NCBI RefSeq assembly: GCF_000002425.4
Contig: NC_037273.1
Location: 12,887,129 to 12,951,128 of the forward strand
Direction: 5' to 3'
From: Physcomitrium patens
Lineage: Eukaryota > Streptophyta > Bryopsida > Funariales > Funariaceae
DNA: 64,000 nt
The notes beneath the pieces were generated by a model. The model was not told the DNA's origin. It searched no databases and saw nothing but the letters and a program-made list of their open reading frames with translations. Position numbers and translations under genes: made by a program. Positions 3,577-52,728 of this stretch are shown here, in pieces; position 1 is the first letter of the stretch; each line of letters begins with the position of its first letter.

Positions 3577-3773
3577 GTTAAAAACATATATATTCACTCT
3601 AACAATTATCTATATGATTAAATAAAATTATGTAAAAATAAATTAATTTCATATTATCTTTTAAAGAAGCTTCTTAAAAACTTTATTGATACAATTTTGA
3701 TTTTAAATATATTTGTAGTTGATTAACGGATTAAAAACTTAATCAACAAGTTAATCACATGTTACACATATTG
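3577..3773 (+). repeat. Old chromovirus LTR, 5' half (split by outer element)
   Basis: A decayed sense-orientation chromovirus LTR starts about here (TGTTAAAAACATATAT), contains AAGAAGCTTCTTAAAAAC and TTGTAGTTGATTAACGG, and breaks off at the TATTG target site of the outer element. It resumes at 16115. The left half matches the 5' part of the LTR at 33331-33873. Confidence 0.65.
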
Positions 3774-3810
3774 TGTTAGGGACATATTTGTTAGAACTTT
3801 TTAGAGAGAG

Positions 3811-4089
3811 GTTTCTAGAACCTTCTAGAAAACAAGTCTCTGGAACCTTCTAGAAGAGAAGCCTCTGGAACCTTTTAGAGAGAAGTTTCTAGAAGCTTCT
3901 AAAAAAGAAGTCTTTGGAACCTTCTAGAAGAGAAGTTTCTAGAAGCTTCTAGAAAGGAATCCCCTAGAACTTTCTAGAAGCTTCCTAGTTAATAAAAGTA
4001 GCTCGAGAAGTTTCTAGAACCTTCTAGAAAGGAAGCCTCTGGAACCTTCTAGAAGCTTCCTAGTTAATAGAAGTAGCTCGAGAAGCTTC
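3811..4089 (+). promoter_or_regulatory. Heat-shock-element array in outer LTR U3
   Basis: About 35 GAA/TTC pentamer units lie in 5-bp register here, matching the plant heat-shock-factor site nGAAnnTTCnnGAAn. In-phase clusters by eye are: 3813-3830 (4 units), 3843-3855 (3), 3882-3899 (4), 3917-3954 (8), 3967-3984 (4), 4007-4034 (6), 4042-4059 (4) and 4082-4089 (2). The array ends about 12 bp before the TATA box, as in heat-shock promoters. The 3' LTR keeps almost all units. Heat-shock-factor binding is inferred from the motif. Confidence 0.85.
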
Positions 4090-4100
4090 CTAAGTAGGAG

Positions 4101-4108
4101 TATATATA
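4101..4108 (+). promoter_or_regulatory. TATA box of outer 5' LTR
   Basis: TATATATA, followed by GGGATCGAGG, lies directly downstream of the heat-shock-element array. The 3' LTR equivalent reads TATATA at 15949-15954. The predicted transcription start is 30-33 nt downstream. Confidence 0.8.
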
Positions 4109-4132
4109 GGGATCGAGGCTGAAGAGTTCTTC

Positions 4133-4143
4133 AATCTCGACAA
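4133..4143 (+). promoter_or_regulatory. Predicted RNA 5' end / self-primer segment, outer element
   Basis: AATCTCGACAA starts 32 nt after the first T of the TATA box. The 3' LTR copy reads AGTCTCGACAA, the exact reverse complement of the primer-site sequence TTGTCGAGACT at 4271-4281. The 5' LTR copy has one mismatch. This is inferred to be the first 11 nt of the RNA, serving as primer as in the fission-yeast Tf1 element. Confidence 0.6.
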
Positions 4144-4270
4144 CACATCTCTTGGAGTTCTAGCTCACCTTTCTGGTGTTGCTCTTGTACTCATCTGTTT
4201 AATCTAGTTTTGCCACTTCTTCTTGAACTTCTTGTTAGATTTCAAGTTTGTATTTTGAGTCCGTGACAGT

Positions 4271-4281
4271 TTGTCGAGACT
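4271..4281 (+). other. Candidate self-priming primer-binding site, outer element
   Basis: TTGTCGAGACT starts 2 nt after the LTR end. It is complementary to the predicted 5' end of the element's own RNA (see 4133-4143). A tRNA-iMet-like motif, ATATCAGAGC, lies further in at 4295-4304. It is 26 nt from the LTR and lacks the TGG that would pair with the tRNA CCA end. Confidence 0.6.
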
Positions 4282-4318
4282 ACACTAACTTGAGATATCA
4301 GAGCTAGTTCTTTCTTAA

Positions 4319-4505
4319 TAGAGTGTGGATTACCCCTCTACTTGAAGGCATACTAGCATTTTTTAGAGGTTGCGGATTACCCTCCTCTAAACTGATACTT
4401 CTTCTGTTACAATATTGGAGTCTTATTCTTCTTGGAGAGAGTGAATTACCCCTCTTCTTGAAATTCTTAAGGCGTTTTATAGGTTGTAGATTACCCTCCT
4501 ATAAA
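4319..4505 (+). other. Leader hairpin array with ATTACCC loops, outer element
   Basis: Four stem-loops lie between the primer site and gag: 4319-4340 (stem TAGAG/CTCTA), 4362-4391 (TTTAGAGG/CCTCTAAA), 4438-4455 (AGAG/CTCT) and 4476-4505 (TTTATAGG/CCTATAAA). Every loop contains ATTACCC. Stems 2 and 4 differ by a compensating base-pair swap. Hairpins of the same design occur in the inner element (12851-12920), D (33964-33991) and E (55118-55145). A role in packaging, dimerisation or translation is possible. Confidence 0.6.
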
Positions 4506-4548
4506 CCAATATTGCCTCTTGTAGAGTCATTTTTGTCCTTCTTTTAGA

Positions 4549-5574
4549 ATGGCCGGAGGTCAAGACATTAGTATGACAGAAAGTTCGGAGTCTAAGTTAG
4601 ATGCTATTATGAATGCCCTCGCTACGTTATCACAAAGAACTGCAGAGATTGAAGGAGTGGTGGCAAGGCTTCATAATGATGGAGTATCTGGGATAGCACA
4701 ATCTAAACTACACCAGCCTCAAATTTTGGCACTTGGAGAAACAACTTTACCTCGGGTTCGACAAGAACCACTAGTTCTACAACATAAGGAGCCTCGAGTT
4801 AGCCTTCCAGATAAGTTTGATGGAACACGTTCCAAGTTTCGAGGATTCGTCAATCAAATCAGGTTGATAACAGTTTTACAGCCCGAATGATATCCAACGG
4901 AGGAGTCACGTGTTGGGCTTGTTGGAACCTTACTTACGGGTCAAGCTCTATCATGGTTTGCTCCTTTGTTTGAGAAACGATCATCCATATTAAACAACTT
5001 CGAAACCTTTTTGGAAGCATTTGCGGAAGTATTTGGTGAACACGATAAGGTTCGATGGGCTACAATAAAGATCCGGTCGCTACGACAGGGGATGCGTTCT
5101 ACATCAGTCTATGCTTCGGATTTCAGGCAATTAGTATGCGACATCAATTGGGATGAAGAAGCGTTGATGAGTCAATTCTATTGGGGTTTAAGAAATGATG
5201 TGAAGGATTTGCTGTTAACTCTTCCTGATCCACGAACGCTCAATGAAGCCATTAGCCAAGCTGTGAAGTGCGATAATCACCTATTCCAACGTCGCCAAGA
5301 CCAACGCTCAAGACAACATACAATTCGCCATGCTCCAATTATGTCGGCAAGCAATGTGAATTCGCATTCAGAAATGGAAGACATGCAAATTGATGCGGTA
5401 CGTATCAAATCTCTTAATATAGAAGAAAAAAAGCGATGTATGGAGGAAAATTTATGCTTATATTGTGGTGGAGAAGGCCACAAAGTCGGAAACTGCCCCG
5501 AAAAGCAAAATCGAGGCATAGTCAAGACTAGGGGAGTATTTGTTCAGGAAAACGAGGATGCCCAGCCACAATAG
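4549..5574 (+). pseudogene. gag: gag of outer chromovirus, one in-frame stop
   Basis: One frame of 341 codons starts at ATG 4549 (MAGGQD) and is broken only by TGA at 4888-4890, which probably arose from CGA. The order matches plant chromovirus Gag: a short helical N-terminus, a retrotransposon-gag capsid region (about residues 85-240: LPDKFDGTRSKFRGFVNQI, then YGEHD-like FGEHDK), then one CCHC zinc knuckle near the C-terminus (CLYCGGEGHKVGNC). The stop at 5572-5574 overlaps the pol frame, which runs in -1 relative to gag. It would encode the structural protein of virus-like particles. The stop makes it defective unless read through. Confidence 0.85.
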
Positions 5575-7166
5575 GAACCGTGCGTCTGGACAATGAAATA
5601 TTCCAAATCCTATTATTCTTGGTCTTTCTTGGTTGGAAAAACATAATCCATTGATAGATTGGAGGTTGCAGAAGATGACTTTTCCCACAAAACCACCCAA
5701 GAAAAAACCTAGTAAAAAACCTCGAAAAAAGAAATCCTTATTCATTGGAGCAAGAGCGTTTATAAGATCATCTAAGGAAGGCACTCCATTTGTCATTTAT
5801 GCGGCTCCAACTACCGAGAAGAAGATCTCAACATTAAGTATACCGGAGCGATATAAAGATTTTGAAGACGTGTTTCAAAAGAAGAACATCGACATACTAC
5901 CGGAACACCAACCATATGATTGTGCCATAGACTTGCAAGAAGGAGCACAACCACCTTTTGGCCCAATCTACAATCTATCGCAAATGGAGTTGGCAGAGTT
6001 ATGAAAGTACATCGACGAGAATCTAGCCAAGAACTTCATTCGTCATTCAAAATCATCAGCTGGAGCACCCATCTTATTGTGAAGAAGAAAGATAGATCAT
6101 TACGGATGTGTGTGGACTATCGAGGCCTCAACAAGGTAACAAAGAAAAATCGTTACCCATTACCCTTGATTTCTAGTCTCTTAGAATAACTTGGACGTGC
6201 GAAGATCTTTACAAAAATTGATCTAAGGGGAGCTTATAATCTCGTACGAATCAAGGAAGGAGATGAGTGGAAGACAGCATTCCGTACAAGGTATGGTCAT
6301 TTCGAATATAATGTCATGCCTTTTGGTCTTACGTATGCTCCAGCGGTTTTCCAACATATGATGAATGACATCTTTCGAGAACACCTCGATGATTTTGTTG
6401 TCATCTACTTAGACGATATTCTAATATTCTCTAAAAACGAGGAAGAGCATGAGGAGCATGTTCGTTTGGTCTTGGAGAAACTACGCAAGCGAGGACTATA
6501 TGCCAAATTAGAAAAGTATTTATTTCACCAAACGGAGATGGAATTTTTGGAGTTCATTTCGACTACAGAAGGTTTGAAGATGGACCCCAAGAAAGTAGAA
6601 GCAATCATGTCTTGGGAGGTTCCGAAGACGGTTAGAGACGTACAATGTTTTCTTGGTTTTGCTAACTTCTATCGAATCTTCATCAAGAATTATTCTCAAG
6701 TTGCTGCTCCTTTCACTCGATTAACATGCAAAGATAAGTTGGAATGGGGACCTTTGGCGGAGAAGGTGTTTCAAGATTTGAAGACAGTATTTACTACAGC
6801 TCCAATTTTGGTACATCCAGACTTTACAAAGGCCTTCTATTTAGAAACTGATGCTTTAGATTTTGCTTTGGGAGCTGTGCTTTCACAAATGACTGAAGAT
6901 AAGAAGCTCCATCCAGTTGCATTCTATTCTCGGAAGTTCTCTGCTGCTAAAATCAATTATGAGATCCAGGATAAGGAACTTCTTGTTATAGTGGATTCTT
7001 TCGAAGAATGGCGTCACTTTCTTGAAGGAGCTGCACATCCAGTAACCGTATATACGGATCACAAGAATTTGGAGTATTTTATGATGGCTCGAGTTTTAAA
7101 TCGGCGTCAAGCTCGGTGGAATATGTCGCTATCTAGATTCCATTTTGTTATCACATACCGACCTGG
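5571..7166 (+). pseudogene. pol: pol part 1 of outer chromovirus (RT-RNaseH), protease deleted
   Basis: This frame is -1 relative to gag. After GTVRLD it jumps directly to ILGLSWLEK. About 100 codons with the aspartic-protease DSGA motif, present in the inner element, are missing. RT follows: [10 protein letters not shown] about 6106, MPFGLT at 6316, YLDD active site at 6406-6417. RNaseH has TDALDFALGAVLSQ about 6850 and YTDHKNLEYF about 7050. Breaks: TGA about 6002, a 1-base loss about 6078 before the KKKD motif, and TAA about 6187. The frame is cut at 7166 by the inner element within ITYRPG and resumes at 13522. Confidence 0.85.
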
Positions 7167-7707
7167 TGTCAAGCACAAAGACTCGATGAGGAAAAATATA
7201 CACCAAAAGGCTATCTCGATATAATAAGTCAAAATATAAACAAGTAGGTATATTAAAAGGAAACTGGAATGGCTATTGCCGCAAGACAAGAAACTAAAGA
7301 CTCTTGAACCTGGACTAGAAGCAAGAAAGGAGTTGACAAGAGTGAAGAAGCCTTCACTCTTGTCTCTATATATACTATCTAACTAGGGGCTACGTGGCGA
7401 CGTTCTATAGGACCTTCAATATGTGTTGACTTTGTAGGACACATGCCTTGACTTACAAGGCAAGTTTTTCTACGTGTGGGCCACATAGTTAGCTTGATCT
7501 TCAAGCTAACAACATGTGTGGCACATGGCCAACTTGTTGACCACGTTTCTAATCCAAAAAGTCAATTAAAGACACCTATGAAGTCAAAGCAGCATCTAGG
7601 AAGCTTCTATATTAAATATTATACAATTAACTTACTTTTATCTACTTTTACTTACTTCTACCTATTTCTATATGTAATTATAAGCTTACATGATTATGGC
7701 CGTGATA
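7167..7707 (-). repeat. 3' LTR of inner chromovirus
   Basis: On the + strand it runs from TGTCAAGCAC to GGCCGTGATA. The terminal CA has become TA (C to T at 7706), so in sense orientation it begins TATCACGG instead of TGTCACGG. It lacks the 11-bp GAAGTTTCTAG-type duplication of the partner LTR. Confidence 0.93.
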
Positions 7708-7720
7708 TTACCCCCCCTTC
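7708..7720 (-). other. Polypurine tract of inner chromovirus
   Basis: In sense this reads GAAGGGGGGGTAA immediately before the 3' LTR. It is the expected plus-strand primer. The same tract, AGAAGGGGGGAGTAA, precedes the D element's 3' LTR at 38798-38812. Confidence 0.85.
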
Positions 7721-7748
7721 TAGAGACGAGTTCCACGAGGAGCGGTCA

Positions 7749-8171
7749 TCATATGTTGAGGAAATCTATGATGCGACGAATTATATTCGCCACATACTCT
7801 GATCTCTATTCTCTTCGAAGATGATTGATAGGGCCTCTCAACCATCGGTAGTGTCCCATACCAGGGCGGAAAGACCACCCAGTTATTTGATCATTATCGA
7901 GGCCTTCATAACTTCCTTCGAATAGAATATTCGAAACACCATCAGGAGTTGTTCCTACCTCTAGCAAAATCACCAAACATCGGGAGTCCCTTCCCAAATC
8001 GTGATACCAAACGCGTTGTATCTCACCATCTGTTCGAGGAAGAACATGTCGTTCTTGAAGATCTTCATCTCGATTGCGTCGTCTTGAAGGTTGTGACAAT
8101 CGTAATGTCTCGTCCGGCAGGTCAGCAAACGAAGGTTCTTGAGTTGAATCCGCTGGTTGTTGGCTCTCCAT
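7749..8171 (-). pseudogene. Unrecognised accessory ORF 3' of pol, inner element
   Basis: ATG at 8171 (MESQQPAD) opens 121 codons to a TAG at 7806-7808. Homologues have a glutamine there, so the TAG probably came from CAG. The frame continues 18 codons to TGA at 7749-7751, for an original of about 140 residues. I see an acidic/polar N-terminus, an Arg-rich patch (PSRRRNRDED), a hydrophobic LVILLEV segment and a C-terminal GHYRWLRGPINHLRRE motif. The same ORF, at the same place between chromodomain and 3' LTR, is found in the outer element (15219-15572), D (38459-38770), and as debris at 19796-20050 and 49430-49820. I recognise no family, and function is unknown. Confidence 0.65.
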
Positions 8172-8258
8172 CTAATTAGCGTTACAAGAAGTTACAAACA
8201 AGGATAGGAAATTGAATGTTATCTTGCCTCAATCTTGTCTCTTTTATAAGAGAGATTT

Positions 8259-11200
8259 TTATCTTGGTTTTGATGGATGTCGTTGATGAAAAACTTTGAC
8301 TTTAGCTGATGCATTTGCTAGATTCCTGGATGGCTCCCATGTGCGTTCACTAATATCATATCCGCGCCAATGAACAAGCTATTCCAGCTTATTTCGGCGC
8401 CGCCTTGAGTCTAATATCTCTTCTACCTCAAATTCTTCATTATTATCTACTTCTATAGGAGGCGGTGGCATTTGTCTTCTTCCTTGTATATCCACTGTCT
8501 TATATGGTTCAAGAAGAGATACGTGGAATACAGGATGGATCTTCATTGACTCCGGTAGATGTAACCGATATGCAACTGGGTTGATCTGTTCAGAAACAGA
8601 AAAGGGGCCAAGCCTACGATAGTCCAACTTGTCACAAGGTCGAGTAGTCTTGATATTGCGACGAAGTAGCCATACCTTATCACCCACGTTGATTTGTGGT
8701 TGCTCCTTACGATATAGATCTGCGTTTATCTTTTGTCGTTCTTGAGCTTTCTTCAATTGTGGCTTCATTATTGCATGTAACTCTGACAACCGATTTGCCA
8801 TATCTTCTGCTGCAGGATTATCAACTTTTGAAAAATCAAAAGTATCAAGTCGTGGATGATAGCCATAATTGGCAAAGAAAGGTGTTTGTTGCGTGGAAGA
8901 ATGTACCGTATTATTATAAGCAAACTCTGCCAATGGCAGAAGGGTTGTCCAATCATCTTGTTGATAGTTGATAGTACACCTTAAATATTGCTCCAAGACT
9001 TGGTTTACGCGCTCTGTTTGTCCATCAGTTTGAGGATGGAAAGCCGAAGATAGCTTTATGTCCACTTTTAAAATCTTGAAAAGGGTCCTCCAAAATCTTG
9101 ACACAAATTGAGTTCCCCTATCCGATATGATATCTTTAGGTAATCCATGATAGCGATAGATATTATCAATGAAAAGCTTAGCTGTTTCTTCACCTGTGAT
9201 AGATTTTGTACATGGCACAAAATGTGCCATCTTGGTGAAACGATCTACTATCACAAATATAGAATCATAAGATCTTGAGCTTGGAAGATCTGTGATGAAA
9301 TCCATAGAAACAGAAGACCATGGTTGTTCTGGTATAGGTAATGGCTGAAGAAGTCCGTAAGGTCGATGACGAGGAATTTTTGATCTTGAACAAATATCAC
9401 ATGATTGTACAAAGTCTTTGACTGACTTCCACATTTGTGGCCACCAAAAATCTCTTGATATGAGTTCCAAAGTCTTATTATATCCAAAGTGCCCTGCTGC
9501 TGGAAAGTCATGACGTGCTTGAAGAACACGTAAACGTGCTTCTCCTTCTGGAACATATAGGCGTCCTTCAAAATATAATAGATTATTCTTGAACTCAAAC
9601 TTAGAAGGATCATGAGACTTGGAAGAATTATTCTCGATATCATAAACAAGAGGGTTTGAGGACATACTGGACTGGATTTGCTTGAGAAAAGTTGAATCAA
9701 CAGTCAATGTTGATTTCATTGCTCGGAGATGAAATTGCTCTGGTTTCAAGAGGACCGTTCTTTGTTGCTCAAAAGCTGCATCTCCTTCTTTTGGTGCAAA
9801 ATAAGAACGTCTAGATAGGGCATCGGATAAACCTTGTTGTTTTCCTGGCCGATAAGTGATAATGAACTCGAATCTTGACAAAGACATACTCCAACGAGCT
9901 TGACGACGATTCAACACGCGTGCTGACATGAAATACTCGAGGTTCTTGTGATCTGTATACACAGTGACTGGACTAGAAGCGCCTTCTAGATAATGACGCC
10001 ATTCTTGAAAGGAATCCACGATCGCAAGAAGTTCTTTATCGTGGATCTCATAATTGATCTCGGCTGCCGAGAATTTTCTTGAATGAAAAGCTATCGGATG
10101 GAGTTTGTCATCTGTTCCCATTTGTGATAAAACTGCACCCAAGGCAAAATCTGATGCATCTGTTTCCATAAAAAATGCCTTGGAAAAGTCAACACGATAT
10201 AAGACTGGTGCAGAGACAAACGATGTCTTCAAGGCTTCAAATGCTGCTTCCGCTTCTTGATTCCATTGAAATTTATCTTTACTAGTCAAGCGTGTAAGTG
10301 GAGCTGCAACTCGTGAGAAATCTTTGATGAAGATCCGATAGTAATTGGCAAATCCCAAGAAACATTGGACATCTCTTACCGTCCTTGGAATCTTCCAATC
10401 CACGATTGTTTGGACTTTCTTAGAATCCATCATGAGACCATCATTTAAAATGATGTATCCTAAAAAGTCAACTTGAGTAGTGTGAAATACACACTTTTCC
10501 ATCTTGGCGTACAATCCTGCATCTCTAAGTTTTTGTAATACTTGACGAACATGTATTTCATGTTCTTCGACGTTCTTGGAATAGATCAGGATATCGTCTA
10601 GATAGCAGACGACAAAATTGTCTAAGAATTCACGAAATACATCATTCATGAGATGTTGAAAAGCAGCTGGTGCATTCGTGAGTCCAAAGGGCATGACATT
10701 ATATTCGAAATGTCCATACCTGGTTCGAAACGCAGTCTTCCATTCATCTCCTTCTTTGATCCGTACTAGATTATATGCTCCTCTTAGATCTATTTTTGTA
10801 TAGATCTTAGCTTGATTCAACTGGTCAAGGAGTCCTGATATCAAAGGTAATGGATACGTGTTCTTGATTGTGATCTTGTTGAGTCCTCGATAATCAACAC
10901 ACATTCGTAAAGATCCATCTTTTTTCTTTACGAATAGAATTGGAGCTCCTGCTGGAGATTTTGAATGGCGTATGAAATTCTTTGCAAAATTCTCGTCAAT
11001 ATATGTCTTGAGTTCAGCCATCTCATCTTGCGATAAACTGTAAATTGGTCCAAATGGTGGCTGAGTTCCTTCCTTGAGGTCGATTGAACAATCATATGGA
11101 CGATGCTCAGGAAGAATATCTGCATTCTTTTTCTCAAAAACGTCTTGATACTCCTGATATTGACTTGGAATGCCACTTGAAGTCTTTACGTTTTCAGAAA

Positions 11201-11747
11201 TAGGTGCAGCATAAATAGCAAAAGTTGATCCTTCTTTTGCTGCGTGTATAAATGCTTTTGCACCTATCAGTACGGGTTTTACTGTACTAGACTTATAATT
11301 TTTTACTTGGTTCGTAGAACTATTAATAACGCTTTTGGAAAAGTCAAGTTTATGCGAATTCCAATCTATTCGAGGGTTATATTTTTCTAGCCAGGATAAA
11401 CCTAAAATAACTGGATTGGACGGGGATTTAATTATGTTAAAAGCTATGTAGCTATCATGACCGTCTATTGTTACTTTTATAGGATGAGTTTCATGAGTGA
11501 CATCTCCAGAAGACAAGGGACGACCATCTATGACTTCTACATGTACTGGTTTAGGTTTCTGTACAAAGGGTATTTTACAACTTTTAACAAATTGTTCATC
11601 TAAAAAACATGCTGAGGCTCCCGAATCTAATAAAGAAGAGGCTTTGTAATTCTTAGGTCCTAAATATAAGTCTATTATAAAACAAGGAGAGGGTTCTGAG
11701 GAGAGGATAAGACCTTCATTAGGAATTGTACAAGGTTCCAGCTGCAC
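8259..11747 (-). CDS. pol: pol polyprotein of inner chromovirus (PR-RT-RH-IN; chromodomain split by a stop)
   Basis: An open stretch of 1122 codons runs from about 11747 to a TAG at 8379-8381. There is no upstream ATG. The frame is -1 relative to gag and overlaps it, so expression by frameshift or readthrough is likely. Domains in order: aspartic protease (LLDSGA, residues 40-44), reverse transcriptase ([20 protein letters not shown] at 382-385, nt 10593-10604), RNaseH (ETDASDFALGAVLSQ, YTDHKNL), integrase zinc finger (H-x-H, CDICSRSK), integrase core (SMDFITDL, ISDRGTQF, QTDGQTERVN), then the HPVFHVSLLEPY region and chromodomain start. TAT to TAG stops it at KLE. The rest of the chromodomain (LVHWRGYDISERTWEP) remains in frame to 8259. 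It is the only nearly intact pol in the window. Confidence 0.9.
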
Positions 11748-11752
11748 GGTCC

Positions 11753-12757
11753 CTATTGTAGCTGGACGAATCCGTTTTCCGACATGTTGTCTTCTTTGAC
11801 CGTCGTACCCCTCATTTTATAGTTGTGTCGTTTCTTTGGACAATGTTGAGCAGTGTGCTTAGGTTCTCCGCAATATAAACATAATCCTTCTTGACGACGA
11901 CGAATCTTTTCTTGCTCAGTTAGAGGTTTAAAACGTACCACGTCAATTTGCATGTCTTCTACTTCCGAATGTACGTTTGGCAAAGATGTTGATGTTGCCA
12001 TTGAGTAATAACGTTGAGGTTCCCGTGAATGATTCTCAGATCGAAATTCAAAAAGTCGATTATCACATTTTACCGCAAAATCGATTGCTTGACTCAAAGT
12101 TTGAGGATCAGATAAGTTGAGCATCAATTTCTTTACTTCGTATTGCAATCCATAAAAAAATTGACTGATGAGTGCAGCATCATCCCACTTGATGTCAATT
12201 GCAAGTTGTCAAAATTGTGAAGCATATACTGTTACTGAGCGATTTCCTTGTCGCAGAATTCGGATCTTATTTGTTGCAACACGAGTTGCATCGTGTTCAC
12301 CATACATAGATCGAAACTCCGCCAAAAAAGCTTCCAAATTGTCCAATATTAGATTTCGTTGTTCAAAAAAAGACGAAAACCACGATAATGCAGAACCAGA
12401 AAGTAGAGTGCCAATAAACCTGACTTGTCATCCTGGAGTTGGATAGCTTTGCGGTTGAAGTTCAATTGCCAATTGTACTTGATTGATGAACCCTCGAAAC
12501 TTTGATCTCGTACCATCAAGTTTCTCAGGTAAGGCAATTCTTGGTTCTCTAGTGCTTATAGGGTGTTGTACAATTGGAGAAGGAACGTGATTTGTTGTAG
12601 ATGTTGAAGCAGCTCTGATCATCTCTATATCTCCACTTTCTGCTATTCTTGTTCTTTCCTGTATTGGTGAATTGAGTTGATGCATCGCAAGCATTAACTC
12701 CCTCATTTGCTCTTGCATTTGTGCCATTGCACTCTTCATTTCAACAAGCTCTGCCAT
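11753..12757 (-). pseudogene. gag: gag of inner chromovirus, two in-frame stops
   Basis: The frame holds 335 codons from ATG 12757 (MAELVEMKSAMAQ) to TAG 11753-11755. It has TGA at 12428-12430 and 12209-12211, where relatives have serine or arginine-type codons. The N-terminus is predicted coiled coil (MAQMQEQMRELMLAMHQL). The capsid region carries LPEKLDGTRSKFRGFINQV and YGEHDATRVA. One CCHC knuckle (CLYCGEPKHTAQHC) lies near the C-terminus. The pol frame lies -1 at the end. GGAAAAC in the gag frame shortly before the stop is shared with the outer element, but it is not a textbook slippery site. Confidence 0.85.
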
Positions 12758-12850
12758 AATGACACTAAGAAGAAAAATTTGTTTGATATTGCTCAAGACA
12801 AAAGAAAAGAAAGACTTGATAACAAAGAAGATACTAAGAACAATATCAGT

Positions 12851-12920
12851 TTAGAAGTGGGTAATCCGCAAACTTCTAATACGCTTATGTCTTGTCAAGA
12901 GAAAGGGGTAATCCACTCTT
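12851..12920 (-). other. Leader hairpins of inner element
   Basis: On the + strand, TTAGAAG (12851-12857) pairs with CTTCTAA (12873-12879) around GGGTAATCC. AAGAG (12897-12901) pairs with CTCTT (12916-12920) around GGGGTAATCC. In sense the loops read GGATTACCC, as in the outer element, while the stem sequences differ. Confidence 0.55.
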
Positions 12921-12956
12921 ACTCAAGAAAAAACAAAGCTCTGATATTGTAAGTGT

Positions 12957-12967
12957 ACTCTTGTCAA
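12957..12967 (-). other. Candidate self-priming primer-binding site, inner element
   Basis: In sense this is TTGACAAGAGT, beginning 2 nt after the 5' LTR. It is an exact reverse complement of ACTCTTGTCAA, which starts 31 nt after the first T of the sense-strand TATA box in the LTR (see 13136-13146). The twelfth base no longer pairs. A tRNA-iMet-like ATATCAGAGC follows at 12938-12947 without the TGG needed for the tRNA CCA end. Confidence 0.65.
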
Positions 12968-12969
12968 TC

Positions 12970-13521
12970 TGTCAAGGACAAAGACTTGATGAGGAAAAAT
13001 ATACACCAAAAGGCTATCTCGATATAATAAGTCAAAATATAAACAAGTAGGTATATTAAAAGAAAACTGGAATGGCTATTGCCGCAAGACAAGAAACTAA
13101 AGACTCTTGAACCTGGACTAGAAGCAAGAAAGGAGTTGACAAGAGTGAAGAAGCCTTCACTCTTGTCTCTATATATACTATGTAACTAGGGGCTACGTGG
13201 CGACGTTCTATAGGACCTCCAATATGTGTTGACTTTGTATGACACATGCCTTGACTTACAAGGCAAGTTTTTCTACGTGTGGGCCACATAGTTAGCTTGA
13301 TCTTCAAGCTAACAACATGTGTGGCACATGGCCAACTTGTTGACCACGTTTCTAATCCAAAAAGTCAATTAAAGACACCTATGAAGTCAAAGCAGCATCT
13401 AGGAAGTTTCTAGGAAGCTTCTATATTAAATATTATACAATTAACTTACTTTTATCTACTTTTACTTACTTCTAACTATTTCTATATGTAATTATTAGCT
13501 TACATGATTATGGCCGTGACA
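12970..13521 (-). repeat. 5' LTR of inner chromovirus
   Basis: It is 552 bp, TG...CA, and is the promoter-bearing copy. In sense the order is: GAAGCTTCCTAGAAACTTCC heat-shock-like half-sites, TATA box at 13169-13177, palindrome 13138-13167, predicted RNA 5' end at 13146, then U5 to GTCCTTGACA. Compared with the 3' LTR it has an 11-bp duplication near 13403-13414. Confidence 0.93.
13136..13146 (-). promoter_or_regulatory. Predicted RNA 5' end / self-primer segment, inner element
   Basis: In sense this is ACTCTTGTCAA, 31 nt after the first T of TATATATAG (13177). It pairs exactly with the primer-site candidate at 12957-12967. The same TATA spacing occurs at 33693-33703 (D), 51111-51121 (gag-only element) and in the solo LTR at 53074-53611. 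Confidence 0.6.
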
Positions 13522-15099
13522 CCTGGAAGGCAGCAATGACTATCCGATGCTTTATCAAGGAGATCGTATCTTGCACCAAAGGCTGGAGAAGCAACGTTTG
13601 ATCAACAATGTACAACGTTATTGAAGCCAGAGAGATTTCAACTTTGTACTACTATTGTATCATTTGATGCTGACTTCCTAAACCAGGTACGTGCTATAAC
13701 CATTAAAGATTCAATAGCCATTGATATCAAGCAACGTACCAATGACGACAAGTTCAAGGTGGAGGGAGATCTTTTATACTTTGAAGAGCGATTGTACATT
13801 CCAAAAGGACTGGCACGACTCCGAGTTCTTCAATCTCGCCATGATTTTCCAGCTGTGGGACATTTTGGATTCAATAAGACCTTGGACCTTATTTCCCGAG
13901 ATTTTTGGTGGCCCCAAATGTGGAAGGATGTGAAAGATTTTGTCCTCTCTTGTGACATCTGTTCAAGATCTAAGAATCCTCGGCATCGCCCTTATGGACT
14001 TCTACAGCCATTGCCAATTCCACGTCGACCATGGTCTTCAATTTCTATGGACTTCATCATGTACTTGCCATCGTCAAACTCATTTGACAGCATCTTTGTC
14101 GTGGTAGATCGGCTTACGAAGATGGCACACTTTGTTCTTTGTAAGAAGACATCATCCAGTGAAGTCACAGCAAGACTCTTTCTCGATAATGTGTATCGAT
14201 ATCATGGACTACCAGATGATATCATATCAGATCGAGGTACCCAGTTCGTGTCAAAGTTTTGGAGATCTCTCTTTGGGATATTGAAGGTGGATATCAAGCT
14301 TTCTTCAGCTTTTCATCCTCAAACTGATGGCCAAACGGAACGGGTGAACTAAGTCTTGGAGCAGTACTTACGATGCAGCATCAACTATCAGCAAGACGAT
14401 TGGACTGCATATCTATCACTAGCCGAGTTTGCATATAACAACACCCTCCATGCGTCGACTCAACAAACACCATTCTTTTCCAACTATGGGTATCATCCGA
14501 AGCTTGATTTATTGAGTCCGTCAACAAATTTCAATCTAGCAGCTGAAGGATTTGTGAAGCAACTATCAGAGCTTCAAACTATGTTGAAGCTTCAATTATA
14601 ATCCGCTCAAGAATCCTATAAGACGTCTGCAGATAGATTTCGGAATCCAGCACCTACTTTCAAAGTTGGAGACAAAGTCTGGCTTCTTCGACGAAATATC
14701 AAGACCAAGCGACCATGTGATAACTTGGACTATCAAAGATTGGGACCATTTATCATCCAGAAGCAAATTAATCCAGTGGCATACCGGCTGGAGTTATCGG
14801 CTTCTATGAAGGTACATCCAGTCTTTCATGTTTCTCTATTGGAACCTTATCGGGAGTCATCTTTTCTTGGAAGAGTGCAATGTCCGCCACCTAGTATTGA
14901 AATCGAGAACCACGAAGAATACGAGGTTGAAAAGGTATTGGATTCACGGCGAAGGTGGAAAAAGTTAGAATATCTTGTTCATTGGTGCGGCTATGACATT
15001 AATGAGCGAACATGGGAGCCAACTGAAAATCTTGCGAATGCGCCACAAAAGGTACAGGAGTTTCATCAACGACATCCCGATAAACCTAAATCAATTTGA
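13522..15099 (+). pseudogene. pol: pol part 2 of outer chromovirus (integrase and chromodomain)
   Basis: This continues the frame interrupted at 7166: RPG, then a stop (TGA 13537-13539), then LSDALSRRS. Integrase: HDFPAVGHFGFNKTL with CDICSRSK zinc-binding residues (about 13840-13975), a core with MDFIMYL, ISDRGTQF and TDGQTERVN, a TAA at 14350-14352 where the inner element has Gln, and a TAA near 14599. A complete chromodomain closes the protein at about 14925-15060: YEVEKVLDSRR, KKLEYLVHWCGYDINERTWEP. In chromoviruses this domain tethers integrase to modified histones. Stop is at 15097-15099. Confidence 0.87.
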
Positions 15100-15218
15100 T
15101 GATAGCTTCTTTCTGAAGCTTGTTCTCCCAACAATATAAGAAAAGGAGAGAGCACCAGCAAAATTCATAGTTGATGTATTTATTTTCTCCAAGATAGATC
15201 GTAGTTTGGTCTTTTGAT

Positions 15219-15572
15219 ATGGATAGCCAAGAGATAGATACTATGCCAGTCAGAGTATCGCAACCGAGTAGCTCACGAAGGTGACCCCAAGATGAAGAAC
15301 TACATGTACCACGACGACGACGGAGGATACCGAGTAACCGATCACTGGTGATCGTATTTGAGATCGAGCCTGCTTACGATGGTCAACCAGAAGGCGTGTT
15401 TGCAGGACAATTTCACAATGAGGACACGGAAGTTCATGCTTGGTCAGAAGTCGAAGGCGTGGGCCACTACCGTTGGCTTCAAGGGTCGATGAACCACTTG
15501 CCTCGTGAACAACAGTTGGAGTTCATAGCAGAAGTTATGCGACAGATCTTCATTTTCTTGCGTTGGTACTGA
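15219..15572 (+). pseudogene. Accessory ORF 3' of pol, outer element
   Basis: ATG 15219 (MDSQEID) opens 117 codons, broken only by TGA at 15282-15284 (likely CGA). It shares with the inner-element ORF the N-terminal MxSQ, SQPS followed by an Arg-rich stretch, LVIVFEIE versus LVILLEV, GHYRWLQGSMNHLPRE, and the end EFIAEVMRQI versus EYVANIIRRI. It starts 120 bp after pol and ends 34 bp before the polypurine tract. Function is unknown, and no signal peptide or zinc motif is seen. Confidence 0.65.
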
Positions 15573-15619
15573 TCAACAACATTGCTTCTCAGAGACCTCG
15601 AAGCTAAAGGAGGGAATGA

Positions 15620-16114
15620 TGTTAGGGACATATTTCTTAGAACTTTCTAGAGAGAGGTTTCTAGAACCTTCTAGAAAACATGTCTCTGGAACCTTCTAGA
15701 AGAGAAGCCTCTAAAACCTTTTAGAGAGAAGTTTCTAGAAGCTTCTAGAAAGGAAGTCTCTGGAACCTTCTAGAAGAGAAGTTTCTAGAAGCTTCTAGAA
15801 AGGAATCCCCTGGAACTTTCTAGAAGCTTCCTAGTTAATAAAAGTAGCTCGAGAAGTTTCTAGAACCTTCTAGAAAGGAAGACTCTAGAACCTTCTAGAA
15901 GCTTCCTAGTTAATAGAAGTAGCTCGAGAAGCTTCCTAAGTAGGAGTGTATATAGGGATCAAGGCTGAAGAGTTCTTCAGTCTCGACAACACATCTCTTG
16001 GAGTTCTAGCTCACCTTTCTAGTGTTGTTCTTGTACTCATCTGTTTAATCTAGTTCTGCCACTTCTTCTTGAACTTCTTGTTAGATTTCAAGTCTGTATT
16101 TTGTGTCTGTGACA
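15620..16114 (+). repeat. 3' LTR of outer chromovirus
   Basis: It is 495 bp, TGTTAGGG...CTGTGACA, with the polypurine tract AAAGGAGGGAATGA (15606-15619) immediately before it. It is about 96% identical to the 5' LTR and keeps the heat-shock-element array, TATA (15949-15954) and AGTCTCGACAA self-primer segment. Confidence 0.95.
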
Positions 16115-16459
16115 TATTGATAGCATATAGAATAAGCTAATTATGTGAGGCACATATAAAAAATTTGTCTTACAAGTTAAAATATGTATCTTGCAAAGTC
16201 AACATATATTCGAGGTTCTATAGAATATTGTCATGTAGCTCCTAGTTATATAGTATAAATGGAGACTAGAGGAAAGCCTTTTTTATTCTTGTTGACACCT
16301 TTCTAATCCTTAGTCTTATTTCAAGAGTTTTTGGTCTTCTTATCTTTGACAATTATCATTCTAGTTCAATACATTACTATCAATAAGTGATTTCTTTGTC
16401 TTTTTTAGTGACATAAGAGTGTACTGAGATTCTAGTTTTTGATATTTATATCCTTGATA
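16115..16459 (+). repeat. Old chromovirus LTR, 3' half
   Basis: This is the continuation of the LTR interrupted at 3773: AGCATATAGAATAAGC, TCTATAGAATATTGTCATG, a decayed TATA region, ending TATCCTTGATA (CA to TA). It starts with the TATTG target duplication. Confidence 0.65.
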
Positions 16460-26687: not shown

Positions 26688-27703
26688 TGTAGAATAAGTA
26701 GTTATTTTCAGAATGTAGATACTTAGTGTATAGTGTAAACAGAGATAGATAACTGCTGAAAAGGTGGTTCAGCAAGTAGAATGGATGAATAGTCAGGAAA
26801 AGTAGTTATCATCTGTAGTATAGGAGTTGGTATCTCGAGGTAGTATAAGGAGGATGGGAGAGGGGAAGAAAATGCCAGACTGAGATAGTGCTGAGCCGAG
26901 GACGAGACTGCGATAGTGTTGAGCCGAGGACAAGATTGCGATAGTGTGAGCCGAGGGCCAGATTGCGAGAGTCGTGAGCCGAGGGCCAGACTATGAAAGT
27001 CGTAAGCCAAGGGCCAGACTGTGAGAGTCGTGAGCCGAGGGCCAGACTGCGATAGTGTGAGTCGAGGGCCAAACTGTGAGAGTCGTAAGCCGAGGGCGAG
27101 ACTGTGAGAGTCGTAAGTCGAGGGCCAGACTATGAGAGTTGTGAGCCGAGGTAAGTTTGGTGCTACCTCTTTTCTTTTGTTTGTTATTTTCTTTGAATAA
27201 GAGGATTGAAAGTTTTTGAATATTGTGAAGTGAATTATGGAATAGAAATGTGATTGGTATTATTTGAGAAGAAGAAAGATTGAATGCTGAAATCTGATTG
27301 TAGTTCAGCAGAGAGAATGAGTCTGTGTTTGTGTGAAACATTGTAATATGAATGGCAGTTTTGTGTGAAGAATTCCAGTGATTGGAACGAGGGTAATTGT
27401 GTGCTGAAAGCTGTGAGGGCGCAGTATTACAGTTGGAGATTATGAAGGTGAATATATTGGTAGAAATAGCAGTTATTGGTATGACTGAATTGCTATAAGG
27501 AAGAGACCGATAAGGTGAAGGAGGAGATTATAGTTTCCTTGTGTGTTCAGATATTCGAAATAGAGACGATACATTCAAGAGGTAATTGATTATGTGACCT
27601 TAACATGAACGCTTAAGCAACTAGTCATTCCTTGTATTTGAATCCCCCTATACGGATTTATGCTGAGAGGTTTCTTCCAGAATAAGTAAAACGAGCAATC
27701 ACA
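26688..27703 (+). repeat. 5' LTR of Tat-like element
   Basis: It is 1016 bp, starting TGTAGAATAAGTAG and ending GCAATCACA. It contains a ten-unit tandem array (26874-27151), the main source of its 141-bp length excess over the 3' LTR. Confidence 0.9.
26874..27151 (+). repeat. 27/28-bp tandem array, 10 units, in 5' LTR
   Basis: Units of the type GCCAGACTGTGAGAGTCGTG plus AGCCGAGG: eight of 28 bp and two of 27 bp, totalling 278 bp. The unit alternates between CGATAGTGTGAG and GAGAGTCGTGAG variants. The matching 3' LTR array (32361-32498) has five units. Confidence 0.9.
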
Positions 27704-27706
27704 TTT

Positions 27707-27724
27707 TGGTGCCACTGCCGGGGA
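27707..27724 (+). other. tRNA-type primer-binding site of Tat-like element
   Basis: TGGTGCCACTGCCGGGGA begins 3 nt after the LTR. It differs at a few positions from the TGGCGCCGTTGCCGGGGA site, complementary to the tRNA-Asp 3' end, known from Athila/Tat elements. The contrast with the chromoviruses, which lack such a site, is notable. Confidence 0.8.
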
Positions 27725-27963
27725 GTGATAATAACTTTGAGTGTTAAGAATTAATTACCAAATATGTAAAAAAATTGACAATGGAAGATGATTTCAGTAG
27801 TATTTGAAGAAAGAGTATAGTTATTAAGAATGAGAATTTAACAGCAAAGAGAATAAAGCAATCAAAGAAAAGAACAGAGAAATCACAAGCAAGAAATTTG
27901 TTATATAATGAGTGAGGTCACAAATTAAAAAAGAAGCATCAATAAAGTTGGATTAAGCCGTGG

Positions 27964-30900
27964 TTGCATGCTTGTCGACATATTCGATCGCACCCAGAAG
28001 ACGATCGACCTCTAATATTTCAGAAGTACATACCGTTAAAGAAATCACCAAGAGCATCTTTAATGACGTCCGGAGGACCAGCAGTTTCGATTGCAGTTCA
28101 AATGGGTGCAGTGGGCGATCGAACGACTAGCATCGCACCATTATCTACTTTTCAAAATTTGCCAGGTGTAGATCCAGATCAACATTTGTCTCAATTCTTC
28201 ATGGCATGTATAGCCAATAATAGAAGAACAGAAGACATTTGGCTGAGATGGCTGCCAGCAACATTGAAAGACACAACGTTTGAGTGGTATAACTGCCAAC
28301 CTGTGGAACAATTTATCAATTGGGAGGCATTAAAAAATACATTTTTAGCCCATTTTTGATCAATTGGTTTTAAAGAACGTCTTAGAGAAAAATTAATGAA
28401 CAGCAGAATGGTACGAGGGCAAGTGGTACAGTCATATTATGGTCATGTAGCGGATATACTTTGAAAATGGCCAAATAACCAAATACCGAAATCATTTGTG
28501 TTGTCTATATTGGTTAATGGGCTACACCCACCAAAATTGAAAATGTTTGTAAAGGAGGCTCAATCAGCCACTATTGCATCATCTCTTGAACGTGCAAAAG
28601 TTTGGGAAGAATGTCACTATGACCAAAACTTAACAGTTGGAGCCACGATGATTCCATCTCAAGGAGGTTATCAAATGACAAATTGAAATGACGCATCGAG
28701 AAGTTATCTGGGAAGAAATGATTATGGTACAATTCCACAGGGAATAGTGGATGCCGTTCCATTGCAAGCTGTACCACCATCATCATCACACCCGTATGCG
28801 CCTTATTTCACATATCACAAATCAATACCTACAAAAGAATTGCCAAATGCATTGGTATCAAGGAATCCCAATGAGTCATTGCTGTTAACATTGACAAAAA
28901 AAATGGACGAATTGGCTATGAATCTGGCCAAGGATAAAGAAAAAAGGCATAAACCAACCAATATGTGTCCCAATGTCTGGTGCAGCAATTGTAAGGGGCA
29001 AGGTCATTTAGTAACAGAATATCCTTCACCACCCCAAATGACTATACAATATACCTTTTGCGGAGGCAAGCATATTACCACCAACTGTTGGAATTTACGG
29101 AAGCAACAACAACTCAGTAACCAGATAATGACTCAACCAACTTTGTGGGATGTCAATCAAGTACAGATAAATAATAGATTTGGCTAGAATAAAAATCGAG
29201 CGAATAAGTAAAACGGGAATTATTCTAATTTCGTCAACTCTGAATTTCACTAACAAGGTGTATCCAATAGTCACGGATTGGCAATGAATCAACCAAGATA
29301 CCATCAATATCCACCCATAACGAAGCCAATGCTAGACTCTACAGTAACAATGGGTCAACCAAGATCCTTTACTCATCCGACATGGAACAGACCTAGTCGT
29401 TATATATCAGTAGAGACATCCATTACCCCTGAAGGAGTTGGCAGGAGTCCACTTTGTTGTTATCGTTGCAGAAAAATTGATCATTATGCCAATGAATGTC
29501 CTAATCCAAGGGCCAATGATGACTATGCTCTAATATGTGGAAATTGTAAGCAGTCTAGGTATACTTATCAACAGTGCAATGCACCCTTTAATTATAATAA
29601 CCGGGACCAACAAATACAAACAAGCCAGCCGGCGGAGGACAAAGGCCCTGTTCAACGAGACTCACCAATACATCGTGTCGAGGAGGTGAACATAGTGCTT
29701 ACCAAAGGCCAACAAAAAGACAAGAATCCAATTCATGATATGGATGAACCAATTACAGAAGAGTAAGTAGCACCGTCCACATGACTAAACGAACTAATAT
29801 CAGTATTAGGACGTATCTCAATATTGAGACCTCAACAAACTAAGGAATCTAATTTGGTCCCACGTGCCAATTTGTCGAGACCATCAAGATTGATTCTAAC
29901 TGACCAAGTACCAATACCTGTACAGTCCAATAAAAGATCTTACGCATTAAAGGAACCTTTAGTGGTAGACAAGTTGGCAAAGTTATCAACGACAATCCAA
30001 ATCGCCAGGAAGGAATTGCTGTCGAATGGAGTAAAATCGAAACCAATGAAATGTAAAAGAGCGTTGGAAATTAGTCTCAATATGGAATCCTACAACATTC
30101 TCAAGGATTTGGATGTTATTCAACCTTTAATTATAATGAAGCAACTTTTGGCTATAGCACTGGAGTGTCGATCTACATTGAATTCAATGTTAATATGACG
30201 AAGATCTTGCACTAAAGAAATTCATGAAGTTAGCTTAAACCCAGATCCAGGAGCACCAACAATCAATGTATCAATCGATGGCATTTTAATTCCAGGGGTA
30301 GAAGTCGATGGTGGCTCTAGTGTGAATTTAATGAATGCAGATATAATGGAGGATTTGGATCTAAAGCAATTGCTACCTACAACATTGGTATTACGAATGG
30401 CAGATCATAGCCGGGTTAAACCAATGGGTATCTTATGGAGTGTTCAAACTATGATTGCCGGTATTCCATATGAAATCGACTATATCGTCTTTCGATTACA
30501 ATGTTTGATTTTATCATATCTAATTTTATTAAGACAACTTTGGCTTTATCAAGTAAAAGCCAAGAATGATTGGGGTTGAGGTACTTTGACAATTGACAAG
30601 GGCAAAGACAAAATGGTATTACAAATGTACTCAGTACACTATCACGGGGAGTCTCAATTGCCAGCATCTGAATTAACGTCGGACGATGAGCTTAGCTTCG
30701 ATGACGACGCAGTAGCACTAATTACGGAGGCGCCCGTGGAGGCAGCATTATACCCTGGAGTGATATACCAATGTGGAGGTCCAGGGGAATATTTGATATA
30801 GCCGACGGACTCGGAAAACTCGGATTATGTTAGTACTGATTGGATGACCAAGTATAATGTGCACCATGTTAGTGCCCTCGACACAGGATTCAGTACTTCA

Positions 30901-31554: not shown

Positions 31555-32065
31555 TAGTGAGAAGTCAGTTACAAGAAAAAGAACGCATGGTGGAGAACCA
31601 CAAGTAAGAACTATTTTGGGCTCGCTTTCATTCAATTTTGGAACTGGAAAAAATAAAAGGTCAGTTGGTAATGGAACGAGAAAAGATCGAGTTATTGGTG
31701 CAAGAAAAATTAGTATTGAGTGACCAATATAGATGTGAAACAAAGCAGTTAAGGGCTGAAATTGAGGCCTTGAACGCCGAGGTGACAAGATTGGCAGAGG
31801 ATTTAGTCAATATTAGTCAAGCACAAGTATCGACGTTGCCAGTTCCAGAAGTTTCAGAAGAGAGGAGTCGCTTTCAGCGCTAGCTGGAATTGAGAGATGC
31901 CCAGATCCTGAAATTGGAAGCTGAAGTCCGTGAACTGGGTGAATATAATGAAGACCTTTCATCTCAATTGAGGTAAGAGCCGATGGAAGGATTGGAAGAG
32001 GATGAAGATTTGCAGTTGGAACCAGAATCGGTAGAACCAATAACAGATACTGTGGCAATTGATTA
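31552..32065 (+). pseudogene. Coiled-coil ORF downstream of truncated RT
   Basis: A separate frame (+2 relative to gag-pol) reads about 170 codons with stops after NHK (TAA), after RFQR (TAG) and after SQLR (TAA); CAA or CAG precursors would explain all three. The longest open piece, 31638-31883, has heptad-like spacing and high Glu/Lys/Leu content (LEKIKGQLVMEREKIELL, LRAEIEALNAEVTRLAEDL). It ends with an acidic tail (LEEDEDLQLEPESVEP) and TAA at 32063-32065. Predicted product: a soluble coiled-coil protein. I do not recognise it. It may be an element-specific third ORF or captured host sequence. Confidence 0.55.
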
Positions 32066-33330: not shown

Positions 33331-33875
33331 TGTTACAGACATACATATTTATCCTGATAATTATTTAGATAATAAGAATATATAGGAGTAAGTTAAAGTA
33401 GATAAATATGATAATATCTTATGAAAAACTTCCTAGAAGCTTCATAGATACTACTTTGCCATTATACATATCTATAGGTGATTGATAGGTTGAAAACTTG
33501 GCCAACAAGGAGGCCATGTGTTGACATATTAACCACTTGTACAAGTTGAACATATGGCGCATACATAAGAAACTTGCCTTAGAAATTAGATATAATTTTT
33601 ATAAGTTAGATGCATATTAGAGGTCCTATAGCATATCGCCATGTATTCCTTGATTAAGTAATATATATAGAGGTAAGTGTGAGGCCTTCTTCACTCTTAT
33701 CAACTCTTTTTTTGGTTTTTAGTCTAGTTTCAAGAGTCTTATGTTTTTCTAATCTTTGGCAATAGCCATTCCATTTCTTCTTTGAATATACATACTTTCT
33801 TCTATTTTGCCACTTTCTTTTTGACACAGATTCTATGACTTTATGCATCTTCTTCTAGTTTGTATCCTTGACAGA

Positions 33876-33886
33876 TTGACAAGAGT
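33876..33886 (+). other. Candidate self-priming primer-binding site, element D
   Basis: TTGACAAGAGT starts 2 nt after the LTR. The LTR's predicted RNA start, ACTCTTATCAA (33693-33703), lies 31 nt after the first T of TATATATAG (33662) and pairs with a single mismatch. ATATCAGAGC follows at 33896-33905. A leader hairpin, TTAGAAG/CTTCTAA with an ATTACCC loop, is at 33964-33991. Confidence 0.6.
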
Positions 33887-50766: not shown

Positions 50767-52728
50767 ATATATTTTTAGTCTAATATTTATCTATATAATT
50801 AAGTAGAAGTAGATAAAAGTAGATTTATTTCATAATACTTTCTAAAAATATCTTCTTAGAAGATTCATATACATTACTTTGACTTTATATATATTTGTAG
50901 TTGATTGATAGGTTAGAAATTTGGTCAATAAATTAACCACATATTGGTAGCTTCCAAAACAAGCCAACAATGTGGGGCACATATAAAAAACTTACCTTGT
51001 AAGTTAAATTATATGTCTTGTAAAGTCAACATGTTTTAGAGGTCTTGTAGAATATTACTATATATCTACTAGTTAAGACTATATATAGATGTAAGAGTGA
51101 AGCCTTCTTCACTCTTGTCAATGCCTTTCTTGTTCTTAGTCTTGTTTCAAGACTTTTTAGTATTCTTGTCTTTAGCAATAGCCATTTTAATTTAACATTA
51201 TATCATCTTTCAATGATTTTTTAATCTTTTAAAGTAACATAAGAATGCATTGAAATTTTATTTTTTTGAAATTCATGTTCTTAACAGTTTGAAAAGAATG
51301 CTAATTTATTATTCTTGTTTTTTTTTTTGAAGTGAGTGAATTATTCCACTTCTATTATTGTATTTTGAAAGTTGCAAAATATCCACCTTTGAACAAATTA
51401 TTTAGCTTTTTAATATTAATATTTTTCTTAAAAAAAGTTGATTATTTTTCTTTGTAAAAAAATTTATTTGATATTAGAAGTTGAGAATTATCTTCTTTTA
51501 CTTTGACTTGTAGATTTGTTAAGTTTTTTGAAATAGAAGAAATAATTATAAATGCTATATTTAGCAAAAGTTAGAATAGATTTGTAACTATTGTTGATCT
51601 CCATAAACTTATCAACACTCTTAGAATAGAAATTTCATCCATCGGGAGTATTAACTATAGATATATTAATCCAATACTAATAAAAAAAAATAGAATTTAT
51701 GCCAAGAAATTATGTAGATGAAAGAAACAAATAACTTGACTTCAAACTAAATCCAAGAAATTTTTCTTCTATAAGTATTATAAGGACAAGGATTAGTATG
51801 TTCAAGAAGTTTGATAGAACAAGATCAAAAATTCAAAGATTTCTGCAACAAGTCAAGATCTATCTAAGATTACATCTCTTCTAATATCTTCATGGATTTA
51901 CTCAAGTTGGATTCATAGATACATTTCTATCTAGAAGTGTTCTCTCTTGGTTTAAATCTTTGATGGAAAAGGATTTACAATTCTTTTATGATTTGAATTC
52001 ATTCCGTATTTATGGCCGCATTTAGAAAAAATAATCAAAAAAGAGTAGTAGAGCCAAAGATCTTATTTTTACGATAAGAATTACAATCAGCCATTATATA
52101 TACTACTAAATTCCAAAACCTTGCTTGCAATGTGGATTGGAATGACAAAGCTTTTATCAATCAATTGTTATATGAATTGAAGGATAATATCAAAGATTTT
52201 TTATTTACAATGCTAAAAGCAAAATCTTTAAAATAATTTATTACTCAAGCCATTATCTAGAACAATCAATTATTTAAAAGATGTCAAAAATAAAGACTTG
52301 GCTAGAAAAGAAAAAATCAAATAATAATTGCACCTCTCAAGTTTTCAAAAACTTATTTATCAAGGCCAAAAGTAATGCAAATTAAACACATATTGGTAGC
52401 TTGTAAAAGAATTCAACTATGTGGGATACATATAAAAAACTTATCTTGTAAGTTAAGATACATGTTTTGCAAAGTCAACATGTTTTACAGTTCCTATAGA
52501 ACATTGTCACATAGCTTCTAGTTAAGAGTATGTATAGAGGCAAGAGTAAAGCCTTCTTCATTCTTATCAATGCCTTTCTAGTTCTTAGTTTTATTTTCAA
52601 GATTTTCTAGTATTCCTATCTTTGGTAATAGTCATTCTAGTTTAATATTATATCATCTTTGAATGATTATGTAGTCTTTTTGAGTGACACAAGAGTGTCT
52701 TAATCTTTAAGTTTTTCAAGATTCATGT
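50767..52728 (+). mobile_element. Short chromovirus (LTR-gag-partial LTR) nested in E
   Basis: The 5' LTR is about 50767-51286: TATA at 51080, ACTCTTGTCAA at 51111, exactly 31 nt later. Next comes a primer-site candidate TTGAAAAGAAT (51289-51299, two mismatches to the RNA start, 2 nt from the LTR). Gag debris lies at about 51540-52370 (AAGTTTGATAGAACAAG; ATTTATGGCCGC). A 5'-truncated 3' LTR runs about 52375-52728. All of pol is missing. The E sequence resumes after 52728. Confidence 0.7.

Follow-up and report, generated by a model that had tools for sequence, protein, structure and literature searches.

Probable self-priming of Tf1/sushi-type retrotransposons in the moss Physcomitrium patens, and a hairpin over the primer sequence

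Two families of LTR retrotransposon in the moss Physcomitrium patens carry, two nucleotides past the 5' LTR, a PBS that complements 11 nucleotides of the element's own LTR. Judged from sequence, the best explanation for both families is very probably Tf1-type self-priming, in which the 5' end of the element's RNA would prime its own reverse transcription. Between the TATA box and the primer we also found a second complement, this time to primer nucleotides 1-9, which is absent from the preliminary description of this DNA. Within the LTR it turns the primer into one arm of a hairpin at the U3/R border, and we tentatively propose that this hairpin reserves priming for correctly started RNA. Both families are present in a single stretch of 64,000 nucleotides (contig NC_037273.1, positions 12,887,129 to 12,951,128 of the forward strand), which in its entirety we call the window.

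The outer element occupies 3774-16114 on the forward strand. Its 495-nt LTRs, at 3774..4268 and 15620..16114, are 96% identical and are bordered by the TSD TATTG/TATTG (3769-3773 and 16115-16119). A TATA box can be read directly in the 5' LTR at 4101..4108. The predicted RNA 5' end, which is also the self-primer, follows at 4133..4143, an offset of 32 nt from the TATA start, and after the 2-nt spacer that separates the LTR from the PBS (4269..4270) comes the PBS itself at 4271..4281. This 5' copy of the primer has one mismatch to the PBS; the copy in the 3' LTR (15979..15989), which sits inside a hairpin at 15958-15987, is its exact complement, 11/11. Nested within the outer element, on the opposite (minus) strand, lies the inner element. 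Its 5' LTR is at 12970..13521 (TSD CCTGG at 13522-13526) and its 3' LTR at 7167..~7707, the right end being approximate (TSD CCTGG at 7162-7166); the two are 96.5% identical over 550 aligned nt. Here the PBS at 12957..12967, past a 2-nt spacer at 12968-12969, pairs 11/11 with the predicted RNA 5' end and self-primer at 13136..13146, 31 nt after the TATA, and the 3' LTR holds another copy of the primer at 7333-7343. Two further copies on the forward strand keep the arrangement less exactly. The D copy (33662..33886; TATA 33662, primer 33693-33703, PBS 33876-33886) departs from it by one mismatch, the gag-only copy (51080..51299; TATA 51080, primer 51111-51121, PBS 51289-51299) by two. These pairings, offsets and mismatches had all been claimed in the preliminary description, and they reproduced. 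In both window families the match is exactly 11 nt long; in a further copy at ~55 kb it has decayed, by eye, to ~6/11.

How readily would such an arrangement arise by chance? We scanned 204 kb, made up of the window and 14 ten-kb pieces of the same genome, for a TATA, a primer at an offset of 28-35 and its complement after CA plus 2 nt, allowing up to two mismatches. Two places matched with no mismatch, and both are inner-family LTR/PBS junctions. Seven matched with one mismatch: three junctions of the outer and inner families and four others. The preliminary description had held that loss of pairing in most intact copies would speak against self-priming. The opposite is seen in the outer family. 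Searching the P. patens genome (470,438,890 bases in 101 contigs) with 306 bases of R-U5-PBS gave 3804 first-look candidates, of which 40 places scored at 97-100%, and all 20 copies fetched from these 40 best-scoring places keep the site (16 at 11/11, four at 10/11). As half of the 40 best-scoring, these 20 copies are young and carry little information on old ones. Among them, L074 has a mutated LTR end, and by eye its PBS is still 11/11.

For the inner family we noticed nine junctions in the window and the 14 pieces, a count that copies with a diverged interior may escape, as the L055 element and the 51-kb copy escaped the probe. Seven of the nine pair at 9-11 of 11 positions, and the other two have decayed to ~6-7 by eye. 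The window junctions score 11, 10, 9 and, for the copy at 55 kb, ~6 by eye; those outside it score 11 (L055), 9 (L058), 10 (L060) and 11 (L065), with ~7 by eye at L066, where the PBS is intact. L055 was met on the minus strand as an inner-type junction ~230 nt after a TATA at 6562, with the PBS 11/11 by eye and the LTR end mutated; with its different interior, this element is a further subfamily. An inner-family LTR is present in eight of the ten ten-kb pieces taken from elsewhere in the genome (L059-L068), so the family is abundant. Old inner-type LTR copies (window, L055-L068) are very AT-rich, and by eye most of the differences seem to be C-to-T or G-to-A changes. A gene-like region of the window at 60000-63200 has a GC content of 47% beside stretches of 20-25%, and its frames at 62121-62450 and 62478-63155 resemble, to our eye, a PARP catalytic domain.

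The inner element's pol frame (8379..11816, minus strand) encodes protease, RT, RNase H, integrase and SH3_Tf2-1. In Ty1/copia elements the integrase precedes RT; in this frame the domain matches put RT (295-455) before integrase (829-927), which does not fit the TAR lineage of copia, itself predicted to self-prime. The frame gave no match to the chromodomain PF00385, a profile that is listed for relatives such as P0002 (98% in RT). In a tree of RT-RNase H, the moss elements fall with fungal (Berkeleyomyces) and frog elements on a 35-row side with an SH-aLRT of 100, and Tanacetum and Closterium lie outside it. A fork with a support of 82 unites the self-priming rows with unnamed relatives and frogs, and L006 sits on its own branch with two unnamed proteins. 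The tree is a quick search with long branches flagged, built on 42 of 48 trimmed rows (four Tanacetum, one Closterium and one fish row, partial or of low identity, were left out by choice). From sequence these appear to be Tf1/sushi-type chromoviruses of the plant Tcn1 clade; the tree, in which Tf1, sushi and Tcn1 are not represented by any named reference, is consistent with the plant Tcn1 clade as described by Neumann et al. 2019.

That placement also puts the elements among published predictions. Self-priming was said in the preliminary description not to be known for plant elements, and this has to be withdrawn. Neumann et al. 2019 (PMC6317226) predict it for most chromoviruses of the plant Tcn1 clade, which come from mosses and club-mosses, and likewise for the TAR lineage of Ty1/copia, and the account in PMC10085805 places Tf1/sushi elements in non-seed plants. 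What we describe adds a case with better documentation to this predicted kind, and is not new for plants. Tf1 of Schizosaccharomyces pombe is described as having an 11-nt RNA 5' end that complements an LTR-adjacent PBS (PMC7175516, PMC10085805), as is predicted for the moss elements, and the plant Tcn1 clade, as characterized in PMC6317226, is likewise made up of non-seed-plant elements grouped with Tf1/sushi and mostly predicted to self-prime. Fungal Tcn1 has been proposed to self-prime too (PMC7175516). Selaginella SM-Tcn1 differs, in that its description reports evidence neither for tRNA priming nor for self-priming (Novikova et al. 2010, PMC2864245).

The obvious alternative is that a tRNA, or half of one, primes these elements, and that the 11-nt self-complementarity is a coincidence or a means of circularising the RNA. 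Most plant chromoviruses are described as using tRNA-Met, and some copia lineages half-tRNA primers (Neumann 2019, PMC6317226). At the junctions we read, no TGG, the mark of a tRNA 3' end, occurs within 0-5 nt of the LTR end, which sets the elements apart from the tRNA-primed plant chromoviruses (Tekay, Reina, CRM, Galadriel) with their TGG-starting PBS. Nor would tRNA use lead one to expect a PBS that varies between families and complements its own LTR each time. We consider tRNA priming highly improbable, though an internal tRNA fragment might yet serve as primer. The TGG check is able to give a positive, since an element at ~26.7-33 kb has TTTTGGTGCC directly after its LTR end. This different LTR element (window 26688-33049), whose LTR pieces are ~90% identical and which has TTTTGG past the LTR end, looks tRNA-primed. 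ARAGORN found no tRNA in the window, and Rfam gave nothing there at gathering level.

Relatives with other primer sequences allow a comparison. Contaminating contigs with a related pol occur in prokaryote records. The two prokaryote bins that hold L001 (G002) and L005 (G001) contain 109 and 9 chromovirus pol profile matches, presumably eukaryotic contamination, and the contigs of the Trichormus bin probably come from the fern Azolla, given the known partnership. Seven relatives from metagenome-assembled genomes (L003, L004, L005, L006, L007, L012, L022) pair over 11-12 nt, with the primer at TATA+31 to 34 and a spacer of 2 nt. They derive from two bins, Trichormus and Synechococcales, the latter with one contig, which comes nearest to the outer element (RT 93% over 326 columns). 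L003, L004, L012 and L022 share a common primer type, of which L007 has a one-letter variant; L006 has another, and L005 has the outer type. In an eighth relative, L001, the 5' LTR pairs with its own PBS at only 7/11, and L002 and other contigs that contain no junction were unusable for comparison.

Among the five primer types, each PBS pairs 11/11 with its own primer and 4-10/11 when swapped. Counted position by position, leaving out L001 and the D copy, 55/55 cells are paired, as against a shuffle mean of 38.1, and both sides have changed at eight of the 11 pair positions. With five primer types the covariation rests on few independent events, and 15/1000 shuffles are as good. The covariation first claimed from the two window families therefore stands in that pairing is kept with different sequences, with a statistical weight set by that small number. 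Further afield, most distant-locus contigs contain no LTR pair, and LTR-PBS pairing is seen by eye only in L019 (11 nt, within 1-111) and L020 (9 nt, within 3-193), weakly in both and with no U3/R hairpin by eye. No DNA relative was confirmed in IMG/VR, where 12 matches to a degenerate pattern were taken for chance, and further searches gave no match.

The U3 of the outer element holds a feature of a different sort. From 3813 to 4059 of the window it is an array of heat-shock-element-like trimers, in which GAAnnTTCnnGAA or TTCnnGAAnnTTC matches 16 times with overlaps (shuffle mean 0.006 and maximum 1 in 1000 shuffles). Such trimers are also readable in L004 and L005; the same motif count finds none in the inner 5' LTR. 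Of the P. patens families, RLG2 is described as heat-induced and RLG1 as repressed (PMC7466625).

The hairpin lies downstream of this region, at the U3/R border. Within the LTR, a stem of 12-13 bp closed by a 4-nt loop has the primer as its 3' arm. This arm starts 3-4 nt ahead of the predicted RNA start and runs to primer nucleotide 9, leaving the final AA free. In the outer 5' LTR the hairpin spans 4112..4141 on the forward strand (arms 4112-4124 and 4129-4141, loop 4125-4128) and is imperfect in the window copy, at -12.4 kcal/mol; in the inner 5' LTR it spans 13138..13167 on the minus strand, with a 13-bp stem, a 4-nt loop, -21.3 kcal/mol and a z of -5.9. It is present in four of the five primer types, in the moss families and in five of seven rows from the fern-associated bin. 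Across the inner element, L004, L005, L007 and L022 its energy ranges from -17.7 to -22.7 kcal/mol with z from -4.8 to -8.9, and in five of seven folded regions none of 200 shuffles was as good. The outer 3' LTR of the window, with a change in the arm, reaches a z of -2.3, and L006 a z of -0.4.

Pairing in the hairpin is also kept through sequence change. Over nine rows, which include neither L001 nor D and leave out L006, 107 of 108 cells are paired (shuffle mean 72.2; 0/1000 as good), and both sides have changed at 11 of 12 positions; with L006 included the figure is 108/120. Reduced to one row for each of four primer types it is 47/48, which 49/1000 shuffles equal. Within the inner family itself, 29 LTR rows, outer-type rows left out, give 377 cells: 310 Watson-Crick, 27 G-T, 17 A-C and 23 other, a paired total reached by 11/2000 shuffles. 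The excess of G-T over A-C cells weakly favours a hairpin that acts as RNA.

An inverted repeat between the TATA and the predicted start is in the core promoter, and might be a start-site element, a cruciform or a factor site unrelated to priming. We hold a promoter or DNA-palindrome function to be somewhat unlikely. Unlike a factor site, the repeat differs in sequence between primer types while keeping its pairing; the loop letters vary, the stem stops at primer nucleotide 9, and the RNA strand carries G-U pairs in the outer element, L005, L003, L012 and L065. The repeat might instead be a by-product of reverse transcription, made when the 3' end of minus strong-stop DNA snaps back and is self-copied into U3, and its centre, immediately 5' of the predicted RNA start, is where a snap-back would leave it. 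But a by-product should decay and vary, whereas the 4-nt loop and the fixed distance to the TATA are kept in moss and fern-bin families alike, and this origin strikes us as distinctly unlikely. Finally, the hairpin could work at the RNA 3' end, in 3' processing or first-strand transfer, and not in hiding the primer. Strand transfer does arrive at the U3/R border in the 3' LTR, but the stem spans just the paired part of the primer plus 3-4 nt, and such a role seems to us unlikely.

The reading we prefer, at a confidence that stops short of even, is that the hairpin is a lock on the primer sequence, and it follows from where the U3 arm would be found. The arm is missing from the RNA 5' end and lies beside the primer copy at the 3' end. 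Transcription would start ~31-32 nt after the TATA, so that the RNA begins with the 11-nt complement of the PBS. The RNA would fold back and pair this 5' 11-mer with the PBS beyond the 2-nt spacer; by analogy with Tf1, the duplex would be cut after nucleotide 11, and the freed 11-mer would prime minus-strand DNA. At the RNA 5' end the U3 arm, being untranscribed, would leave the primer free. In the 3' LTR, or in a transcript reading through from upstream, the arm would be present and could lock the primer sequence, and the hairpin would then mark the true RNA 5' end as the sole usable primer. Predicted folding fits this scheme. In leaders that begin at the predicted start and end 15 nt beyond the PBS, the mean primer-PBS pairing probability is 0.92-0.96 in eight of nine rows; once 34 nt of U3 are added to the LTR, the hairpin takes up primer nucleotides 1-9 at 0.82-1.00 in those eight. 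The 5' LTR sequence with these 34 nt stood in for the 3' LTR, and the outer row that was folded is L069, not the window copy. In the predicted structure of the L006 leader, primer nucleotides 2-12 pair with the PBS and there is no hairpin. Indeed, L006 lacks the U3/R hairpin (1/12 cells) though it self-pairs with 12 nt, the L001 5' LTR keeps 5 bp of it, and L019 and L020 have none by eye, so self-priming in general can do without a lock.

Tf1 is described as requiring two more duplexes beside the PBS, which make up a "pretzel" (PMC10085805). In the fern-bin rows a helix joins the final 8-10 bases of U5, its terminal A not counted, to a segment 5-6 nt beyond the primer: 47/48 cells are paired, four of eight positions have changed on both sides, and 4/1000 shuffles do as well; L006 has changed several of these pairs at once. 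Shuffled singly, five of six fern-bin rows give p values of 0.000-0.027, and L022 gives 0.51. In the moss elements that register has 17/32 cells paired, equal to shuffles, and a pretzel-like U5 duplex is not supported there; L065, alone among the moss rows, has an 8-bp helix in another register (p 0.04). For a third duplex, p is <0.05 in L006 and L007 alone (0.077 in the outer element), and L006 has both Tf1-like flanking helices, of 10 bp and 9 bp. The three-duplex structure of Tf1 is thus not clear in the moss rows, and on this count the interpretation in the preliminary description is supported only in part. Self-priming is nonetheless the best reading of the sequence: pairing is kept at most junctions and, with other sequences, in relatives, the start position set by the TATA fits, and a TGG-type tRNA site is absent from the junctions read.

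The U3/R hairpin may be a second point of difference from Tf1. The descriptions of Tf1 and of the plant Tcn1 clade with which we compared the moss elements do not mention one, and as far as it was covered, the open-licence literature on these elements holds no account of it. The nearest parallel known to us is the Conserved Hairpin Site of the GalEa copia elements of fungi, also a conserved hairpin in an element described as having no tRNA PBS (PMC5445492). That hairpin lies after the 5' LTR and not at U3/R, and its authors report that a complementary repeat in U5 was not found (PMC5445492).

For the wider family, the position of the pairing, its retention among copies and its covariation lend comparative support to the published prediction that chromoviruses of non-seed plants self-prime. 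The hairpin may add something to that picture. A self-priming element faces a primer-twice problem, with one copy of the primer sequence at each end of the RNA and only one of them usable. If the hairpin works as we suggest, it answers that problem by a kind of RNA end authentication, in which the same 11 nucleotides have two exclusive partners: the PBS at the 5' end, and the U3 arm in the 3' LTR or in read-through RNA. It is possible, though we would not put it higher than that, that such a device has been kept, with different sequences, in the moss elements and, by inference, in those of ferns, and that only correctly started RNA would prime.
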